IMG/VR virus record: IMGVR_UViG_3300043786_000408 | Coordinates: 1-27,137 of that record | Length of the DNA: 27,137 bases | Reading direction: 5' to 3' (one strand) | Origin: a virus | Shown: positions 11,318 through 27,137 of the stretch, in pieces | Position numbering within the stretch: the stretch's first letter is position 1 | How the letters are laid out: every line of letters starts with the position of its first letter | Position numbers and translations under genes: made by a program | Notes under the pieces: model-generated | The model's input: the letters and a program-made list of their open reading frames with translations, nothing else | What the model was told of the DNA's origin: nothing | Databases searched by the model: none

Positions 11318-11616
11318 GCCCAAACCCTCATCGGCACCGCAGGCGGCGGGTTAAGGATCGGCAGTTCCTCCAGCACCTCCGGCGGCAGTTCACCCGCTAC
11401 CCGCAGGTTTGCGTGGAACCGAGCATCCGTGACAGGCTCGCCGTCCACGATGCGAGTCACCGGGCCGATCCAGCCGAGATCAAGCCGGATGCCGTTGTAG
11501 TCGATCACAGTGCCGTCGATGATCTGCCCGTCCACGTTCGGGATCGTGATGCCTGCGGCGAGGAACGCATTCGCCATCGCGGCCTCGGTGGTGGTGCGTA
11601 GGTAGTAGTCGCTCAT
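11314..11616 (-). CDS. Hypothetical head-module protein (100 aa)
   Basis: 100 residues, ATG at 11616 overlapping the upstream stop (ATGA). Mixed helix at 10-22 (TEAAMANAFLAAGIT) then strands with IIDGTVIDYNGIRLDLGWIG and a proline-rich C-terminus (PILNPPPAVP). It lies between the lectin-like protein and the head-tail adaptor. No family recognised; a minor structural protein is the simplest guess. Confidence 0.6.
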   Translation of the reverse strand: MSDYYLRTTTEAAMANAFLAAGITIPNVDGQIIDGTVIDYNGIRLDLGWIGPVTRIVDGEPVTDARFHANLRVAGELPPEVLEELPILNPPPAVPMRVWA

Positions 11617-12896
11617 GTAACCAGTCCGTTTAGGGTTGCGTTGGGCAATCGCTGCGGCCAGAACTTCAGCGTCCTTATGTGCATGAAGTTGTCGGCGTTC
11701 GGATTGAAGATGATCTTGTCCGCGTCGAAGCCGCTGCCCAGTGCCGTGGTCGTGGTTTCCGATCCGATAGTCGTGCCGGTGTTGACGTACATGGCGGAGT
11801 TGCCTGTCTTCACGGCGAGCGCGTGCTTGAACACGGTATTTACGGTTGCGTTCGTGGCTGGCGACGCCGTGAAGTCATACAGAGCGACCGCATTAGCACG
11901 AATCACGCTGCCTGTCGTGACATAGCCACGCGATCTTGATGTGCTGCCGCTATTGCGATTCAACCACAAGAATTGATTGGTCGCCGGAGATCGCGTGATG
12001 TCGCCAGTCCACAGCACGGTGAACTCCGACTGATTAGCGGGCCACCATGAGGAGAAGTTGGTTCCCGTAATGTCGCACGAATCCGCCGCTCGCTGCACGG
12101 TGCTTGTGCCCGTAGGGATGTACGAGGTGGCAGCGGATGAGGCTTCTAGTTGTGCGCCCCAAACGGTCATCGAGTTGGTGTTGTCACCGACCCAGTTCGT
12201 TGCCGGATCTTGCTCGGTGTTTTGCACTACCAGCCAAACATCGGTACTGGTTAGCGATGCCGTCCATGTCATCGTGACGCGATACCACCCATTCGCATAG
12301 GGCGTGATGGTCCGCGTGTTGGTGATGCCATAGCCCGACGATGAATTGCCGGCCAGATTGAACGAAGCACGAGTCTGCGGCCCTGTCGTGACCAATCCAA
12401 GAACGCCATATCCTGATGGCTTGGCAAAAACCGACATCGTGTAGGTCGTGCCGCTCACAATCGTGTTCGCGCCGGTTCCCAGATAATGCAAGCCGCTCGT
12501 CGTGTTCGGGATCAACTTGACCGCAGTAGTTGCGCCGTCAGGAGATGATTGGCCTGTCCATCCGGTCGTGTTCAGATTGGTTCGCACACCGTAACCCGGG
12601 AATGTTGCCGTGCCCATGTCCTCGCTTCGTGGCAGCAGGTTCGTGACGCTGCCCTCCAGAAGCAGCCCGCGAGGAGCGAGCGTGGTCGGGTCGTAGTCGA
12701 AGCGGGCTTTCGTCGGATCGTTCGTCGCCGCAGCCGTGACCTGCTGAACCAGCCCGCTGGAATTGATGAACGTGGCGATGCTGTTTCTCGTGTAGGTGAA
12801 CCGCGAGTCCAGCGATGACATCGTGGTGAAGTCCAGCGACAGCGTGGAGCCGTCGCCGCGACGCAGCATGAAGGGCGCGAACTTGCTGGCCTTCAT
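11613..12896 (-). CDS. Lectin-like structural protein in the head module (head fibre/decoration candidate)
   Basis: 427 residues, ATG at 12896 overlapping the upstream stop (ATGA). An N-terminal section has the widespread phage fibre motif LDSRFTYTRNSIATF, then TTLAPRGLLLEGSVTNLLPR. A jelly-roll-like carbohydrate-binding section follows, with SGTTYTMSVFAKPSG, GWYRVTMTWTA and the very common end VWGAQLEASSAATSYIP. The C-terminal part (about 280-427) resembles a ConA/LamG-like lectin fold. Such proteins often occur as tail fibres, but here the gene lies between the capsid and connector genes, so a capsid-bound fibre or decoration protein is more likely. Confidence 0.75.
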   Translation of the reverse strand: MKASKFAPFMLRRGDGSTLSLDFTTMSSLDSRFTYTRNSIATFINSSGLVQQVTAAATNDPTKARFDYDPTTLAPRGLLLEGSVTNLLPRSEDMGTATFPGYGVRTNLNTTGWTGQSSPDGATTAVKLIPNTTSGLHYLGTGANTIVSGTTYTMSVFAKPSGYGVLGLVTTGPQTRASFNLAGNSSSGYGITNTRTITPYANGWYRVTMTWTASLTSTDVWLVVQNTEQDPATNWVGDNTNSMTVWGAQLEASSAATSYIPTGTSTVQRAADSCDITGTNFSSWWPANQSEFTVLWTGDITRSPATNQFLWLNRNSGSTSRSRGYVTTGSVIRANAVALYDFTASPATNATVNTVFKHALAVKTGNSAMYVNTGTTIGSETTTTALGSGFDADKIIFNPNADNFMHIRTLKFWPQRLPNATLNGLVT

Positions 12897-13093
12897 CGCC
12901 GCGCCCCCTTCTTTGCAGCCCGGCAGCATTCGGGCTTCACGCATGCCTCCGGCTGGTCCGGGTGGAAGTCAGCACGCTCGGCCCAGCCGAGGGACAAAAA
13001 CTCGATGGCACGGGCATCGGGCAGGTCGTAGACCAGACCCTCGCCGTAGCCCTCGCTAGCCATCCCGACGGTCTGCAGCATCTTGACCTTCAT
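12893..13093 (-). CDS. Hypothetical small head-module protein (66 aa)
   Basis: 66 residues. The ATG at 13093 is chosen because GAGGAC lies just upstream; the open frame extends to 13150, but that part runs through a perfect hairpin and is unlikely to be translated. The core MKVKMLQTVGMASEGYGEGL and a following DLPDARAIEFLSLGWAE resemble small phage proteins found after capsid genes. The C-terminus has Cys residues (ACVKPECC) and a basic tail. Coupled to the lectin-like gene by ATGA. Confidence 0.65.
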   Translation of the reverse strand: MKVKMLQTVGMASEGYGEGLVYDLPDARAIEFLSLGWAERADFHPDQPEACVKPECCRAAKKGARR

Positions 13094-13155: not shown

Positions 13156-14481
13156 TCAGTTCTTGCCACGCAGGAATCGGAACGCGTCCGTCTGCGTGTA
13201 CTTGATGTCAACCCGGCTGGTGCAGACCATGCCGATGTTGTCCTCGTCCGCGAAGCGCTCGTTGAGCACACGCAGCGAGAACTGGCTGCGCTGTCCAATC
13301 ACGAGGAAGTCGAACGCACCGATCAGGCCGCAGATGCCGCCACCGGTGTAGCCCGTCGACGTGGTGGCCGGATCGGGCACGTAATGCGACGCGTAGATCG
13401 GAATGCCCATCACGCGGTCGGGCTCGCCCAGGACGCCGCTCGGCTGCCAGAAGTAGGTGGTTGTCGAGCTGGACAGAATCGGCGCCTGCCGGATGAACTG
13501 CAGCACCTTGTCGCTCACCAGGATCGCGCAGCTGGGGTGCTGGCGATACTGACGCGGCAGGCTGTACACGAGGTCCTGAATCTCAGCGGCAGTGATCGCC
13601 GTGTTAGCGGCCAACTGCTTGCCGACCGACGGACCCGTCGAGGCAGTCGTGGCAGACGGTCCGACCGTCAGGATGCCAGTGGGCTGTCCGGACGCGCCGG
13701 TGCCCACGAGGAAGCCCTGCTCCTCCTTCTCCGCAAAACCCTTGGCGAAGGAGTTGGTCAGGATGTTCTCCAGGCTGAAGCCCGGGCCGCGGGCGGGGGC
13801 GTCCTCGGCCAGCTCGCGGCTGACCTTGGCGAGACCCGCCAGCTTCTTGGCGTTGAGGACCACGCTGCTGAAGGTGGGGTTGGTGCTCAGCGAGTCAGTG
13901 ATTGAGCTGCCTTCCGTGGTCCAGTTGACCGAAGCCACGTTGCTCTCGATCACCAGGTCACGCTTCCATGACCCCATCGGCATGATCTGGGCGAGTTTGC
14001 GCAGGGTCACGACCTTCTGCAACTGCTCGAAGATCTTGTCGCTGAACTCGGTCGGGGCGATCACATCGCCCAGGCCCGTGCCACCCTCGCTCAGGGCGCG
14101 CTGCTCGTTCGGCCCGATCAGCTCGCCGCGGCGGAGGTAGGAGTCGAACGCATCCCGGTACTCGTCGGTATCGGCCCACGAGCCCCAGCGGGTGCCCTTG
14201 TTGGCCTTGACCGCCTTGGTCGCGGAGCGACGCTCGGGAGCGTCGGGCGACTCAACCCAGCCCAGGTTGGTGTCCTTTTGGGCCAGCTGCATGAGGCTCA
14301 CGTTCCGCTCGCGCTGCTCCTGCAGCTTGCGGTACTCGGCCTGCATCGCGTCGAAGCGCTGCGTGTCCTCGGCGCTCATGTCGCCGCCGTTCTCGTTCGC
14401 CGCGTCGATCATCGACTGCATCTCGCGGTAGAGGGCGCCCATCTTCTCGACGAGCCCTCGGTAGGTGTCCTTGTCGTTCAT
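13156..14481 (-). CDS. HK97-fold major capsid protein with N-terminal delta domain
   Basis: 441 residues, ATG at 14481 with AAGGGA upstream. Residues 1 to about 70 are a charged coiled coil (VEKMGALYREMQSMIDAAN...), the delta/scaffolding domain that the prohead protease removes in HK97-type phages. The HK97 fold runs from about 105: N-arm, the SEGGTGLGDVIAPTEFSD start, E-loop region with VNWTTEGSSIT, spine helix with KVSRELAEDA, and the P-domain and A-domain to the C-terminal ERFADEDNIGMVCTSR. It is one of two tandem paralogues; with the delta domain, this copy looks like the main shell protein. Confidence 0.92.
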   Translation of the reverse strand: MNDKDTYRGLVEKMGALYREMQSMIDAANENGGDMSAEDTQRFDAMQAEYRKLQEQRERNVSLMQLAQKDTNLGWVESPDAPERRSATKAVKANKGTRWGSWADTDEYRDAFDSYLRRGELIGPNEQRALSEGGTGLGDVIAPTEFSDKIFEQLQKVVTLRKLAQIMPMGSWKRDLVIESNVASVNWTTEGSSITDSLSTNPTFSSVVLNAKKLAGLAKVSRELAEDAPARGPGFSLENILTNSFAKGFAEKEEQGFLVGTGASGQPTGILTVGPSATTASTGPSVGKQLAANTAITAAEIQDLVYSLPRQYRQHPSCAILVSDKVLQFIRQAPILSSSTTTYFWQPSGVLGEPDRVMGIPIYASHYVPDPATTSTGYTGGGICGLIGAFDFLVIGQRSQFSLRVLNERFADEDNIGMVCTSRVDIKYTQTDAFRFLRGKN

Positions 14482-14505
14482 GTGTTTCCCTTTCGTTGTG
14501 CGGGC

Positions 14506-15756
14506 TCAGGACCGGTTTACGTTCAACACGCCTGAGGAATGGAGGAGAGCCCCGTCCGCCCGCACGCTGGCGACGAAGGCTGTGGAATCGGTGTCCGCGT
14601 ACCGCTCGCTCAGACGCGTCACGGTGAAACCCGCGAAGTTGGTCACGAGGAGGTACTTGCTCGGATCGAAGAACATCACCAGCGTGTCGCCGCTGGCTGG
14701 AGTGGTATTGCTCAGCCGGTGATAAATCGTCGGCAGGCCCTCGACCGTCGTGCCCTGCTTCATGTTGCCCATGAACACCGGGAACAGCGGCGGGTAGAAG
14801 GTCGAGTCAAACGATGCGGTGAGTCGGCTGTTGATCACCGCGACGCTGTTGATCCACTGTTCGTACGCCATGGGCGACAGCGCCGAGTTGGTCGAGGCCC
14901 ACGCACCGGCCAGGATGTCGCTGGCCTTGTTGGTGGTCGCCACGCCGGTGCTGGCCGTGCGGCTGTACGCCTTGGCGGAATTGAACGCGCCCTGACACTC
15001 GCTCGTGCCGTTGCCAATCAGGATTTGACGGTTGATCTCGGTCTTCAGTTCGCTTGCAAACTCTTGCAACAGGAACTGCTCGACGCTAGCTGCGGCGGCT
15101 GAATCCTCCAGCAGCTCGTTGCTGACGCGGGCCCAGATGTGGACCTTCTTGAGGCCAAAGGTGTAGGTCGTGCTGCCGCCGCTGCCTTGCTGCGGCAGAG
15201 CAAACTGCGTGCTGCTGGTGTACGACTCGGTGCGCAGTCCCTCAGTGCCGATCACGGCAGTAGCGGTCGCACCCGAGCCGCCGCCGCCCGAGAAACTGAC
15301 CGTCGGAGCAGACGTGTAGCCGCTGCCAGCGTTGGTCACCGCAATGCTGACCACCGCGCCGCCGCTGATCGTGGCCGTGGCCGTGGCACCCGATCCACCG
15401 CCGCCGGTAAACGCCACCGTCGGGGCCGAGGTGTAGGCGCTTCCTCCAGCGGTCACGTCGATGCGTGCTACCACGCTGGTGTTATTGATGACATCCGAGC
15501 CGACGTAGATGGGGGCAGTGAACTTCTCGGAACTCTGCACCATGCGGACGCGGCTCAGGATTGCGTCCTGCTGCATCGCCGAGTCGATGAAGTCGATCCA
15601 GCCCGTGGGGGCGACGCCGCTGCCCAGGCCGGAGCCAGACAGGCTCAGGGCTCGGGTCTCAGCATCGCTGAGGCGGTTGACGCCGTGCCTCAGGTACGTC
15701 TGGAACAGGTGGCGGTACTCGTCGCCGCCGCGGTCCAGGGTTGTCTTGGTTGCCAT
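14506..15756 (-). CDS. Second HK97-fold capsid paralogue with repeat insertion
   Basis: 416 residues, ATG at 15756 with CGGAGA seven bases upstream. It aligns with the neighbouring capsid protein throughout: [38 protein letters not shown], and [14 protein letters not shown] near the C-terminus. It differs in two ways. It has no coiled-coil delta domain. At residues about 96-170, in the region corresponding to the E-loop, it carries two repeats of about 38 residues ([19 protein letters not shown] type). It could be a second shell protein, a vertex protein or a duplicated capsid gene used as decoration. It is the first gene after the 225-bp leader. Confidence 0.85.
15241..15471. repeat. Two ~115-bp coding repeats in the second capsid gene
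   Basis: The two units (residues about 96-133 and 134-172 of the paralogue) share [19 protein letters not shown]. Each looks like a small beta domain of the GSGY...P-V-F-GGGGSGA class found as repeats in many phage structural proteins. They are similar but not identical at DNA level. Confidence 0.75.
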
Positions 15757-15980
15757 CACAGTCTCCGGGGTTATCGCCGGGACTGCGCAGCAAAATGGCG
15801 CACTGACCCGGCGGTTGTCTTCGTCGTTGACATCCGCAGTTCGAGCCAGTGCGCCACACGGGCTGCACGGAGGATCGCTCGCTCGTCAGTCAGCGTGCAC
15901 TAGGCAGGGGCTGCTGGGAGCGGAGGTATGAGTTGTCGGGTTCATTAGACCAATTCAGGAACCCGGTTCAAGGGGCAACG
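15757..15980 (-). promoter_or_regulatory. Capsid leader with candidate promoter and inverted repeat
   Basis: This 224-base stretch holds no gene and is the longest gap in the genome. On the minus strand, TTGAAC (15966-15971), 16 bases, then TCTAAT (15944-15949) form a candidate -35/-10 promoter firing into the capsid genes. Downstream, TGGCGCACTG (15796-15805) and CAGTGCGCCA (15847-15856) are perfect inverted repeats with a 41-base loop; in the transcript they would form a long-range stem before the capsid start. Confidence 0.5.
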
Positions 15981-16502
15981 TCACGCCGGGGGCATCAGCC
16001 GCAGACGCCTGGCCGGCGCCGGATGGGCCTCAGCCCGGGCCTCGACGCTTGTGCCCTCGTTGGCAGGGAACGTGACCAGGCTGATCTCCAGCAGGTCGGC
16101 GTCGCGGATGATCCGCAGCGGTTTGGCCGCGCCCTTCTCGTAGGTCTCGTCACGCACCTGAAACCCGAAGGAGCACTGCGTGACCACGCCGCTCTTAACC
16201 AGCTCGTAAGCCTCGCGTCCGCTCTGGGTGTCGGGCAGGGTGGCCTCGAAGCCCAGGCCGGTTTCATCGGCCCACAGACGGAGGTTGCCAGCCCGGACGC
16301 GGGCCAGCGGCTTGCCGGTGTCGTGGTTCCAAAGCAGGGCAATCTCGTCGGCCTGGTCCAAAGCCTTGTTGAACGCGGCTGGGTCCAGCCGTTCCTCAAA
16401 TGAGCCCATATCGTAAATGTCCCAGGTGGCGGCATAACCGCTGACGCGAAGGCCCTCGCCGCCGCTCAGGGTGCCCTTGTCTCGTGTCTCACGCTTGTGC
16501 AT
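15981..16502 (-). CDS. HK97-family prohead protease
   Basis: 173 residues, ATG at 16502, overlapping the portal gene by 14 bases. It matures the capsid by removing the delta domain. The pattern is clear: GYAATWDIYD, FNKALDQ, LLWNHD with catalytic His60, SGVVTQCSFGF with Ser111, and DLLEISLVTFPANEG with Glu139 as probable third member. The length is normal for this family. It sits directly between portal and capsid genes, as in HK97. The only nearby substrate with a scaffold domain is the capsid protein at 13156-14481. Confidence 0.92.
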   Translation of the reverse strand: MHKRETRDKGTLSGGEGLRVSGYAATWDIYDMGSFEERLDPAAFNKALDQADEIALLWNHDTGKPLARVRAGNLRLWADETGLGFEATLPDTQSGREAYELVKSGVVTQCSFGFQVRDETYEKGAAKPLRIIRDADLLEISLVTFPANEGTSVEARAEAHPAPARRLRLMPPA

Positions 16503-18249
16503 TGTTGATCTCCAGAAGGGGAAGGTTGAGCAGAGTCACCTTGAGCAAGTCCAGCAAGGCGGCCGCGGCCGATCCCGGCATGGACCGCAGCCCGTCCAGC
16601 TGCTCGCCCAAGGTCTTGATGTCGCCGATGCGGCTCCGCAGCATGCGGGCGTGCCGCACCAGGTCGGCGTCCAGCACGGCCACCGCCTGGGCCTCGTCAC
16701 CGAGCAGGCGGCCCAGCCCGGCCACGACCGACCGCAGGTCCGCATCGAGGCAGTCGATTGGTGGCGCCCACCGGTCGAGCTTCGCCTGCGTGCGCTGCCG
16801 AATCAGATACTCGGATAGTCGGGCCAGGTGACGCTGGTACGCAGCCTCGACCGCTGGACGAACCGCCGCAATGGCCACCGACGCGACCGCTGCACGGTCC
16901 TCGGCCTCGTTGTCATCGCTGGGGGCCTCAGGCTCGATCTCGTCGGGCTCAATGTCCACAGACGGCTCCTCAGCCTCCGGCGCCTCGGCGGGCGCGGTAG
17001 GCCCTTCAGCAGGCTGCTGGCCGGGGGCCTCGGTGTTCATGGGCACGCGGATCTGGTCGCCGCCATCGACTGCCGGGCGCCCTTCCAGAGCGCGGGCCTC
17101 GTTGACGGTCAGGATGCCGTTGGTGATGCCGACCGCGTACGCGTTGAACCGGGTGCTCATGTCAGCCCGGAGCAGGCTGTCGAAACTGATCCGGGTGCAG
17201 AATGCCTCGCCGCGGGGGATCAACTTCCGGCTGGCCTCCTGCTCCAGCCGGGTGGCCCAGCTGCTCAGGGTGTGCTTGACGAACTCGCTGTCGGCCTGCT
17301 CGGCGCTGTTCCAGCTGGTGGCGTCGGTGTCGCCGACCTTGTGGCTGGGAACGCCAAACGCCGCCGCGATCTGCTGGCGGCAATACTTCCGCATCTCGAT
17401 CAGGTCCGCGTCTCTAAAGTTGGGGGAGATGGGGTCGTACTTGAGCCCGTCCTCCAACACGGCCACGCGACCGGCGCGGCTTGCACCACCGTGTGCCGCC
17501 TGCCACGCCTCCCGCAGTCGCTTCGACGCCTCAGGGCTCAGTCGGCCAGGCATCTGCAGCGTTCCGGCCGGTACCGCGTTGTTCGCGTAGAACGTGGTCA
17601 CGTACCGCTGCACCTCCAGCTCCAGCCCGATGATGTCACGCATCAGGTGGATCGGCGGCACGCCGAGCACGCCCTCCATGGTGGGGCCAGTCAGGTGAAA
17701 CACGTCGTACGCTCGGAACCGACGCGCCGACTTCTCGGGATCGGTCCCGGTGTACCGGCCGCTAAAGACCTGGTAGTAGGGCTGGTTCGCCTCGTCGCGG
17801 TACATGCTCACGTAGTCCGGCCGCAGCAGTTCCAGGGCCACGGCACGCCCGGCCGCGTCACGCTGGATGTACGCGTAGCCGTTTCCAGCCAGCAGCGCGT
17901 TGGTGATCAGGGCCTCGCGGAACGAGACCGCGGTGTAGTCCTCGCCGGGCTCGTAGTTCAGCAGGCCGTAGAGCGGGTGGGCAGACTCAGCCACCTTGCC
18001 ATCGGCCGACTCGCGCATCACCTGCCACTCTAGCCGGGCCAGCGAGCCCGCGATCAGACGCACGCAACTGAACACGCTCGGGGCCTCCAGCGCCCGCGTC
18101 GGCGTGATCACCTCGCCGGTGTAGGAGTAGGTCTGGATATACGACTGCACGGAACCCGAGACGGGCTGGCCAATGGGAACCGTCTCCTCAAAGTCCGAGC
18201 GCGGCGGGGGGGCTCCGAGGTAGCGACGCAGTAGGTCTGTCAGACCCAT
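16489..18249 (-). CDS. HK97-family portal protein with long acidic C-terminal extension
   Basis: 586 residues, ATG at 18249, overlapping the terminase gene by 10 bases. It forms the dodecameric DNA channel of the capsid. The portal core spans to about 405 with APSVFSCVRLIAGSLA, NALLAGNGYAYI, FGVPSHKVGD and TSWNSAEQADSEFVKHTLSS. The core has the usual length of the family (about 400-430). Residues about 408-452 are a Pro/Glu/Asp-rich linker, followed by about 130 residues of helical sequence. The extension could be an inner-capsid or scaffold-like domain. No frameshift or fusion is apparent. Confidence 0.93.
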   Translation of the reverse strand: MGLTDLLRRYLGAPPPRSDFEETVPIGQPVSGSVQSYIQTYSYTGEVITPTRALEAPSVFSCVRLIAGSLARLEWQVMRESADGKVAESAHPLYGLLNYEPGEDYTAVSFREALITNALLAGNGYAYIQRDAAGRAVALELLRPDYVSMYRDEANQPYYQVFSGRYTGTDPEKSARRFRAYDVFHLTGPTMEGVLGVPPIHLMRDIIGLELEVQRYVTTFYANNAVPAGTLQMPGRLSPEASKRLREAWQAAHGGASRAGRVAVLEDGLKYDPISPNFRDADLIEMRKYCRQQIAAAFGVPSHKVGDTDATSWNSAEQADSEFVKHTLSSWATRLEQEASRKLIPRGEAFCTRISFDSLLRADMSTRFNAYAVGITNGILTVNEARALEGRPAVDGGDQIRVPMNTEAPGQQPAEGPTAPAEAPEAEEPSVDIEPDEIEPEAPSDDNEAEDRAAVASVAIAAVRPAVEAAYQRHLARLSEYLIRQRTQAKLDRWAPPIDCLDADLRSVVAGLGRLLGDEAQAVAVLDADLVRHARMLRSRIGDIKTLGEQLDGLRSMPGSAAAALLDLLKVTLLNLPLLEINNAQA

Positions 18250-19874
18250 GTGATGGTCCTTTCTTCGTAGACGCTGGGTCCGTGCTCGTCCTGCTTCTGG
18301 TGCAGCCAGGTGGCGAGCGCGGTGACGAGAGCAGCGAGCGGGTCAATGCGCTCCGTGCTGCTCGACTTCGATGGCTTGAGGTTCCCGGCCGGGTCCTGAT
18401 CCACGACCGTGTTGCTGACTGCCCAGTTCAGTAGGCAGTTGTCGGGGTGACGAATCTTCCGGCTGGTCACCAGGGCTTCGAGCCGCTTGCACGGTTCGCT
18501 GAGCGTGCGGAATCCTTGCCGCACCTCAAGCATGGGAACGCCCTCGGTGTAGAGCCCGCTGGCCAGCTGCGTGGCGTTCCATGGGTCGTAGCCGATGTGC
18601 CGCACCTGGTAGCGGCGGAACACGTCGCGGATGCGGGCCGCGATGTGGTCGTAGTCCACCACCGAGCCCGGCGTCGGGTGCAAGTGGCCCTTGCTCGCCC
18701 ACACGTCGTACGGGGCCCGGTCACTCCGGCTGCGCCGGCGGATGCCTTCCTCTGGGCACCAGGTCCACGTGAGCACGTCCACCGACCCGTCGCCGGCAGG
18801 AAACACCAGCGCCAGCGAAGACAGGTCCGTTGTCGTGGACAGGTCCAGCCCACCCCAGCACTCACGGCCCTGCAGGCTGTCGGCGTCCGCCGCGCTCGAC
18901 GCACACGCCGCCCAGGCGTCGCTGCTGATCCAGACCCGCTTGCTCTCGGTCCACTGGCACAGGTACAGCTGGCGGAACGTGGTCTCGTAGGTCGGCAGTT
19001 CCTTCGCCTTGTCGCACTCAGCCCGCAGGAACTCTTCCGACACGGTGACACCCAGAGAGGGGTTGCACTGCCGCCAGACCTTCGGGCTCTTCCAGTCCGC
19101 CTCGACCGGAGCGGAGAACAGCACCGGCATGAACGCCGGGTCCTCAATGACACCGTCCCGTACCTTGGCCGCGTAGTCGTGCAGTTCCCAGCACAGGCTT
19201 TCGCGGTCGTGTCCTGCGGTCGTGATGCAGACCTGCAGCGGCTGCTTGCGAGCACCCATCGAGGTCACCATCGCGTCGTACAGGTCGCGGTCCGCGAATG
19301 TGTGCACCTCGTCGAAGATCACGCATGACGCGTTCTTGCCGTGCTTGGTCCCCGCGTCGCTGCTCAGCACCTCCAGTTTCGACGTGCCGAACGTGATCAC
19401 GTTGCGGAACACCTCGACCTTCGACGCCAGTTCGGCGTTGCTCTGCACCATCTGCCTGCAGGCGTCTCCGACAATCGCCGCCTGGTCGCGGGCTGAGGCA
19501 CAGCAGTAAACCTCGGCTCCCTGCTCGTGGTCGCAGAGCAGCATGTAGAGCCCGATCGCAGCCAACAAAGTGCTCTTGCCGTTCTTCCGCGGGATCTCGA
19601 TGTACGCGCTGCGAAATCGACGGGTGCCGTCGGCACGCTTCCAGCACAGCAGGGCACCAAGCAGGTCGCGTTGCCAGGGCAGCAGCTCGAAGGGGCGGCC
19701 CGCCCACACGCCCTTGGTGTGACGCAGCAGCCCGAAAAACTGCGTCAGGCGCTGCAGTTCCTCCACGTCAAACCAGTCGCCCTTGCGGGCGGTGGCTGAC
19801 GCACTGAAGCCCGCGACGGGGGCCAGCTTGTCAGGCGATCTTCGGCTTAAGGAGCGCGTCGATGCCCGAGGCAT
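18240..19874 (-). CDS. Terminase large subunit
   Basis: 544 residues, ATG at 19874, overlapping the small-subunit gene by 44 bases. It packages DNA with an ATPase and cuts it with an RNase H-like nuclease. Visible: Q-motif-like LPWQRDLL, Walker A PRKNGKST (95-102), Walker B CVIFDEVH (184-191), and nuclease residues in GLDLSTTTDLSS (Asp344, Asp350) with a C-terminal RIDPLAALVTAL carrying the third acid. Length is typical of the HK97/P27-associated type. With the adjacent HNH gene this suggests cohesive-end packaging, but no cos site could be located by eye. Confidence 0.95.
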   Translation of the reverse strand: MPRASTRSLSRRSPDKLAPVAGFSASATARKGDWFDVEELQRLTQFFGLLRHTKGVWAGRPFELLPWQRDLLGALLCWKRADGTRRFRSAYIEIPRKNGKSTLLAAIGLYMLLCDHEQGAEVYCCASARDQAAIVGDACRQMVQSNAELASKVEVFRNVITFGTSKLEVLSSDAGTKHGKNASCVIFDEVHTFADRDLYDAMVTSMGARKQPLQVCITTAGHDRESLCWELHDYAAKVRDGVIEDPAFMPVLFSAPVEADWKSPKVWRQCNPSLGVTVSEEFLRAECDKAKELPTYETTFRQLYLCQWTESKRVWISSDAWAACASSAADADSLQGRECWGGLDLSTTTDLSSLALVFPAGDGSVDVLTWTWCPEEGIRRRSRSDRAPYDVWASKGHLHPTPGSVVDYDHIAARIRDVFRRYQVRHIGYDPWNATQLASGLYTEGVPMLEVRQGFRTLSEPCKRLEALVTSRKIRHPDNCLLNWAVSNTVVDQDPAGNLKPSKSSSTERIDPLAALVTALATWLHQKQDEHGPSVYEERTITWV

Positions 19875-26232: not shown

Positions 26233-27086
26233 AGTCGGATCTCCTTGCTGTTGTCAGGGTGATTGCTCAGGGCCTCGTGCCACTCCTCGAGGACCGCCCT
26301 GGTGCCCTCGGGTGTCTTTCCCTTCTTCTTGGCTGCGGCCAGTGCCTGCATGGCGGTGCGCCTCTGACCCGTGTTTCGGGCCAACGCAGCCACCTGCTCG
26401 GCCAGATCCTCAAGACTCACCTCGCCGCCATCCGTGGCGGCAGGGTCCGGCACCTGCTCCGTGCCGGTCGCAGCCCTCGGCGCCGGCGGGTCGCACGCCG
26501 CCAGCGCCGGGGCCACGGGAGCCGCCACGGGCCCATCCGACGTGGGACCCGCAGCAGTGAGCGCGTTCAGCCTGGCCAGCCGGTCAGAAGACACGGCACG
26601 CACAGGCTGCAGGGCAGGACCGCCATCGCCGATCTCCGTTTCGTCGGGGAAGCCCAGCCCGCAGATGCTCAGAGTGAGGCGACGCTTGGCCTTCGTCTCG
26701 GCCTTCATCATGGCGTTGGCAAGCTCGACACCACGCAGGCCGGTGATGCTCACCGACCCGCTTGCCTCGTCGCGTCGGCCCTCCTTGTCTTGGCCGCGCA
26801 CCGTGACCGTGTAGACGCCGCCCTCGGTGTCCGTGATCCGGCCCGTGATCCGCACGCTGACGCCGTGGATCTGACGCAGCTGCTCGCTGCAGTCCTTCGT
26901 GGCGTACATGACCAGCCGACCTTGGAACTGCTGGAAGGAGAAGGGCCGCGTGGCCGGGTTGAGGCCCAGCGACTGGCAGACGTGGTGCACGTAAGACACC
27001 CGCTGCTCAGGAGTCAGCCTCGACAGGTCACCAGAGACCACGATCTGGTCGATGGCCTGCATGTCAGTCAGTGGAACGATGCTCAT
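26229..27086 (-). CDS. RecT/Rad52-like ssDNA-annealing recombinase
   Basis: 285 residues, ATG at 27086 with GGAGG seven bases upstream. Typical segments are LTPEQRVSYVHHVCQSLGLN, YATKDCSEQLRQIHGVSV and ANAMMKAETKAKRRLTLSIC followed by GLGFPDETEIGD, known from a large group of phage annealing proteins. The last ~110 residues are a low-complexity linker and charged helical tail. Joining the ends, its ATG overlaps the exonuclease stop (ATGA) and its own stop overlaps the SSB start (GTGA). It would anneal strands exposed by the exonuclease. Which annealase superfamily it belongs to is uncertain. Confidence 0.78.
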   Translation of the reverse strand: MSIVPLTDMQAIDQIVVSGDLSRLTPEQRVSYVHHVCQSLGLNPATRPFSFQQFQGRLVMYATKDCSEQLRQIHGVSVRITGRITDTEGGVYTVTVRGQDKEGRRDEASGSVSITGLRGVELANAMMKAETKAKRRLTLSICGLGFPDETEIGDGGPALQPVRAVSSDRLARLNALTAAGPTSDGPVAAPVAPALAACDPPAPRAATGTEQVPDPAATDGGEVSLEDLAEQVAALARNTGQRRTAMQALAAAKKKGKTPEGTRAVLEEWHEALSNHPDNSKEIRL

Positions 27087-27137
27087 GCTGCCACCTCCAT
27101 GCCTTCCTCCAGTTGCCGACGCAGCCAGACAGGGACC
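27011..27137. repeat. Second copy of the 127-bp terminal repeat
   Basis: Identical to bases 1-127. The last 55 bases (27083-27137) hold the 3' end of the exonuclease gene that is complete at 73-915. Confidence 0.93.

Follow-up and report, generated by a model that had tools for sequence, protein, structure and literature searches.

A second HK97-fold capsid protein, lacking a scaffold domain, whose gene adjoins that of the major capsid protein in a clade of small uncultured siphoviruses

HK97 gp5 and the RcGTA capsid protein, PF05065 proteins that have a delta domain and an S78 protease, are each the single capsid protein of their system. Dedicated HK97-fold minor capsid proteins have already been described for T4, which is the main natural-virus case so far and, according to PMC12407261, the single virus in which two HK97-fold proteins have separate roles. 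T4 gp24 and gp23 are about 20% identical; 65 residues are removed from the N-terminus of gp23 but only 10 from that of gp24, and gp23 bears a domain in its E-loop (PMC9958956). SaPIbov5 Ccm, a capsid-protein homologue encoded by a helper-hijacking satellite, carries a delta domain of 87 residues and is expected at pentamers beside the phi12 CP (PMC8569155). Outside the viruses, the Family 2B encapsulin of Streptomyces lydicus consists of two co-encoded HK97-fold shell proteins with an E-loop domain, assembled into a shell of variable composition (PMC12407261).

The locus that we describe here lies in a window of 27,137 nucleotides, the whole stretch of DNA analyzed, which represents a complete contig, circular and 27,010 bp long, with a 127-nt terminal repeat (positions 1–127 and 27011–27137) and encodes a tyrosine integrase. 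Its head module, on the minus strand, runs in the order TerS, TerL, portal, S78 protease, and then two tandem capsid genes, whose products we call A and MCP (the major capsid protein). Genes for a connector, a major tail protein, and a tail assembly chaperone follow the capsid pair and identify the virus as a siphovirus. The coordinates of the tandem ORFs in the first-pass annotation were right, and the genes needed below are these:

18240..19874, minus strand: large terminase (TerL), the clade-defining gene (PF20441, 7.7e-43; PF03354, 1.3e-33)
16489..18249, minus strand: portal protein (PF04860, 2e-97)
15981..16502, minus strand: prohead protease (PF04586 Peptidase_S78, 2.9e-43)
14506..15756, minus strand: A, second HK97-fold capsid protein, 416 aa, without a delta domain (PF05065, 3.5e-20)
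13156..14481, minus strand: MCP, major capsid protein, 441 aa, HK97 fold with an N-terminal delta domain (PF05065, 1.2e-43)

MCP is an ordinary member of the group that includes HK97 gp5 and RcGTA. It matched PF05065 with 150 bits (curated cut-off 24.2), TIGR01554 at 6e-66 over positions 7–383, and the phrog_10 major head protein at 1.9e-68. Among the matches listed, the RcGTA major capsid protein was its closest solved structure by both sequence and fold, the AF2 model of MCP (pLDDT 71) matching the RcGTA capsid in VIA with a Z of 21.6 and an rmsd of 3.5 over 258 residues. The N-terminal part of the model divides into three segments:

14269..14481, minus strand: delta-like scaffold domain of MCP, residues 1–71 (AF2 helices 7–30 and 37–71)
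14167..14268, minus strand: MCP linker, residues 72–105 (low-confidence and unstructured in the model)
14086..14166, minus strand: MCP N-arm helices 106–118 and 124–132 (AF2)

Residues 1–71 occupy the position equivalent to that of the HK97 delta domain and have no counterpart in A. Because the MCP model has its helices within residues 7–71, then the linker, and only then the N-arm helices, where A begins, the delta domain is confined to the downstream protein, as had been claimed from the sequence. By analogy with HK97-type phages, the linker is the probable region of protease cleavage. With its delta domain, and with an S78 protease gene adjoining the capsid pair, MCP has the attributes of an HK97-type self-scaffolding capsid protein.

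The gene for A starts with an ATG preceded by a GGAG ribosome-binding site, and its product matched PF05065 Phage_capsid with 73 bits (against the same curated cut-off of 24.2) and TIGR01554 at 5e-23. The AlphaFold model of A is of moderate confidence (pLDDT 61, pTM 0.53), which weighs against the reading of A proposed below. In a Foldseek search of the PDB the model matched an HK97-fold capsid with an E value of 4.5e-10, and in VIA this moderate-confidence model matched the RcGTA capsid with a Z of 15.5 and an rmsd of 4.8 over 227 residues and HK97 gp5 with a Z of about 14. Structure prediction, run for each protein, thus returned the HK97 fold that the first-pass annotation had assigned to both. 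Among the matches listed, RcGTA and HK97-type capsids were the best for A in sequence as well as in fold, and a profile built from an alignment of A with MCP found the RcGTA major capsid protein at 2e-24. The model retains the N-arm, spine helix, and P-domain and opens directly with N-arm-equivalent helices (12–24 and 31–39). The relatives of A, like A itself, start at the N-arm; one relative, L034 (loci are designated by L numbers), covers TIGR01554 only from position 75 onward, compared with position 7 for MCP. Some of the best structural matches were HK97 chains named as pentamer chains, which we rejected as evidence of position since the Z-scores were tied and the model was of moderate confidence. 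The absence of T4 gp24 among the best 50 structural matches listed is uninformative either way.

A also contains an insert of about 80 residues that the first-pass annotation had not mentioned and that the AlphaFold model places between the two E-loop strands:

15244..15486, minus strand: E-loop insert of A, about residues 91–171 (two ~40-residue beta repeats)

The insert matched phrog_701 and other families of phage tail and virion structural proteins at up to 1.5e-18. It is retained in close relatives and missing from A proteins of the L010, L025, and L015 types, and the A-like protein of L026 and L042 has at the same place a different domain with tail-fibre-type matches. The likeness of the insert to repeats in structural proteins of tails and virions, together with the existence of vertex decorating proteins such as that of Peru-2, would suit a protein placed on the outside of a complete MCP shell, for decoration or attachment. 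However, A retains the whole HK97 fold, with N-arm, spine helix, and P-domain, none of which decoration would need, and we regard this role, one of those that the first-pass annotation had offered, as very unlikely.

As that annotation had noted, A and MCP align with each other: BLASTP gave 26% identity over 227 aa (E 5e-9) and 35% over a 78-aa region around the N-arm (E 1e-5), with an overall identity of about 22–26%. Because each protein independently matches both PF05065 and TIGR01554, the likeness is far above chance. It is greatest at the N-terminus of A:

15622..15756, minus strand: N-terminus and N-arm of A, residues 1–45 (the part best conserved among A types and MCP)

The N-arm (A residues 9–40) averages 44% identity between A and MCP, as against 11–35% in other regions, and 57% between the two main A lineages, A1 and A2, as against 21–42% elsewhere. 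Within the MCP set itself, conservation of the N-arm is average and not that of a top region. That this segment is the most conserved between the A lineages and MCP though not within MCP suggests, from sequence comparison, that A enters the same lattice as MCP. Recent duplication or gene conversion of the N-arm was rejected as the source of the likeness, A being as similar to its own MCP (43.7%) as to other MCPs (43.3%). We likewise rejected read-through from A into MCP. The two genes share a reading frame in the window, where 24 nt separate them, but the separation is 23 nt in close relatives and roughly 87–99 nt in others, so read-through is not conserved.

Two adjacent HK97-fold proteins that have an N-arm in common could also co-assemble mixed within capsomers. 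The S. lydicus two-component shell offers a precedent for such co-assembly and resembles our pair in having an E-loop insert too (PMC12407261), and both encapsulin chains were among the structural matches of the A model. That shell is non-viral, however, and its two proteins are far more similar to each other than A is to MCP, whose 22–26% identity is close to that of gp23 and gp24; the pair described here, moreover, is embedded among the terminase, portal, protease, and tail genes of a phage head module. In addition, A lacks a scaffold domain and would therefore not be interchangeable with MCP in assembly. We consider a mixed shell unlikely.

To find relatives, we used A, MCP, and TerL as queries against viral contigs, which yielded relatives of graded similarity. 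We then called A and MCP by profiles and counted loci that cover both protease and MCP, several of which share a contig. A gene for A lies between protease and MCP in 51 of 51 loci whose TerL is at least 53% identical to that of the window, so the pair, which we had sought in related phages, is clade-wide; 54 distinct complete A ORFs were recovered. None of the 21 loci with TerL below 53% identity has A, and in 20 of these the protease–MCP gap is within about 300 nt, which leaves no space for a second capsid gene. The clade consists of uncultured siphoviruses, with longer records of 24.8–27.8 kb. MCP and TerL also served as queries in two scans of bacterial and archaeal genomes, which found no relative, either prophage or host, and isolated phages included no relative above about 31% MCP identity.

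Two loci are unusual in their upstream capsid gene. At L026:2307-3527 and L042:2236-3471 we observed a third, very divergent capsid paralogue, also without a delta domain (PF05065, 2e-8), which has an unrelated E-loop domain and abuts the protease gene directly, without an RNA leader; two scans for this lineage found these two members only. The neighboring MCP at L026:3540-4823 has a C-terminal third nearly identical to the L004 type and a remainder from another lineage, and is a recombinant or an assembly chimera.

A branch with support 100/99 parted all A proteins from all MCPs in a tree built from 73 capsid domains, and A is thus not a series of recent duplications; the grouping of A with the clade MCPs, apart from outgroup MCPs, had weak support (79/55). 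A1 and A2 are about 30% identical, and their distribution does not follow the MCP tree. Loci L066 and L092, for example, are 84.5% identical in MCP and 25.7% in A (L095 was grouped with this case), L077 and L045 are 86% and 31% identical, respectively, and L034 and L038 are 93% and 61% identical. A lineages that are 26–31% identical beside MCPs that are 84.5–86% identical indicate that A has been exchanged as a module, separately from MCP.

A is under purifying selection, as judged from its coding sequences: its dN/dS was 0.09–0.22 in 13 of 14 pairs, mostly at or below that of MCP, by which we rejected A as a pseudogene. The divergence of A and its shorter N-terminus might be expected of a decaying duplicate without function, but selection, the presence of A in all covered clade loci, and the 54 complete ORFs refute that reading, to which we assign next to no probability.

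The interval between protease and A, 195–232 nt long and conserved in the clade, encodes a structured RNA leader with the following parts:

15757..15980, minus strand: structured RNA leader, protease–A interval (covariation in a 15-sequence alignment)
15944..15971, minus strand: promoter-like TTGAAC–16 nt–TCTAAT at the leader start (9/12 matches; a consensus match only)
15792..15855, minus strand: long hairpin with a short T-run, attenuator- or terminator-like (helix 5 of the covariation model)

In the 15-sequence alignment, 15 of 26 pairs showed two-sided compensatory change. The covariation score was 0.453; shuffling gave 0.266 (sd 0.017), sliding gave no value above 0.111, and the MFE z was -5.5. 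The TTG and AAT core and the 16-nt spacing of the promoter-like element were constant across the aligned relatives. Helix 5 had 95% of its cells paired, and the hairpin and T-run precede the ribosome-binding site of A. An Rfam search with the leader gave no match. The leader probably controls the expression of A and MCP together, and may be an attenuator or a small RNA of the head operon. That A is the first gene after the promoter-like element and resembles MCP in its degree of conservation could also be taken to mean that A fills a face or hexamer position, or makes up most of the shell, and that MCP is the minor component. We think this very unlikely, as only MCP has the delta domain, the assembly driver in phages without a separate scaffold gene, and MCP is the protein common to phages with one capsid gene.

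The full capsid fold of A, its MCP-like N-arm, the lack of a scaffold domain, the fixed site, and selection together point to A being a second shell subunit. Among the three roles that the first-pass annotation had offered (mixed shell, vertex-specific subunit, or decorating shell protein), that of a shell subunit is well supported as the best fit. We propose that A is a minor subunit, derived from an HK97-type capsid gene, that would enter the prohead together with MCP. A would most likely supply the pentamers of the 11 vertices other than the portal vertex, and MCP the hexamers; we lean towards this arrangement with moderate confidence. Assembly would be driven by the delta domains of MCP, later removed by the adjacent S78 protease, and because MCP supplies these domains A would need none of its own. 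The N-arm common to both proteins would anchor A in the same lattice. A would be present in virions, and its E-loop domain, where there is one, would be displayed on the outer surface around the vertices.

A vertex-specific role appears the most likely by analogy, the penton position being favored because the known phage homologues, T4 gp24 and SaPIbov5 Ccm, are placed at pentamers; like gp24, A is an HK97-fold paralogue whose gene adjoins that of the major capsid protein in the same genome. The T4 pair resembles A and MCP in low identity, in a capsid protease, in a long N-terminal piece on the major protein only, and in an E-loop domain. Yet T4, a large myovirus, has a separate core scaffold, and its reviewed E-loop domain is on the major gp23, whereas here the phages have 25–28 kb genomes, the scaffold is a domain of MCP in an HK97-type head module, and the E-loop domain is on the minor protein. 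Ccm resembles A in being a homologue paired with an HK97-type MCP that has a delta domain and a protease (PMC8569155), but A belongs to the phage itself and has no delta domain.

Several observations count against the penton position. Exchanges of A at 26–31% identity beside the same MCP might exceed the tolerance expected of a penton–hexon interface; sister phages without A build their capsids from one MCP; and gp24 and Ccm have an N-terminal piece removed, where A has at most a few residues to lose. The window sequence itself has no feature that tells pentamer from hexamer.

Ccm also sets capsid geometry, which raises the alternative that A acts in assembly to determine capsid size or shape, and that mature virions contain few copies of it or have lost it. 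Genomes of 25–28 kb lie between the T=4 and T=7 averages of a published size model (about 18 kb for T=4 and a T=7-like peak at about 42 kb; PMC7762592), where geometry control could matter. The prefactor and exponent of that model turn 27.0 kb into a T of about 5.3, so we claim no T number. Against such a transient factor, A is conserved, lies upstream of MCP, and shares its leader, like a structural protein, and a display-like E-loop domain would make little sense for it; we judge this distinctly unlikely, and only slightly less so than the reading in which A is the major subunit.

More tentatively, and we would rather doubt than assert it, the vertex subunit of a two-component HK97 shell could be an exchangeable cassette, with A lineages and E-loop display domains swapped or lost to give serotype-like vertices, and with an attenuating RNA leader setting the amount of both proteins. 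If A does act at vertices, finding the same division of labor in another phage group, unrelated to T4 and far smaller, would show that dedicated vertex proteins arise repeatedly, two proteins plus a protease, with one partner scaffold-free, would make a simple system for studying pentamer/hexamer discrimination, and the E-loop of the minor subunit would be a natural display site.

Two minor observations concern neighboring sequences. At L059:5947-7240 the MCP is broken over several reading frames beside an intact A, probably through sequencing or assembly errors. In the window, a tail-like protein (11613-12944, minus strand; phrog_5939, 4e-59) is encoded between MCP and the connector genes; in relatives it is 30–48% identical or absent, and the neighboring genes there are far more similar.
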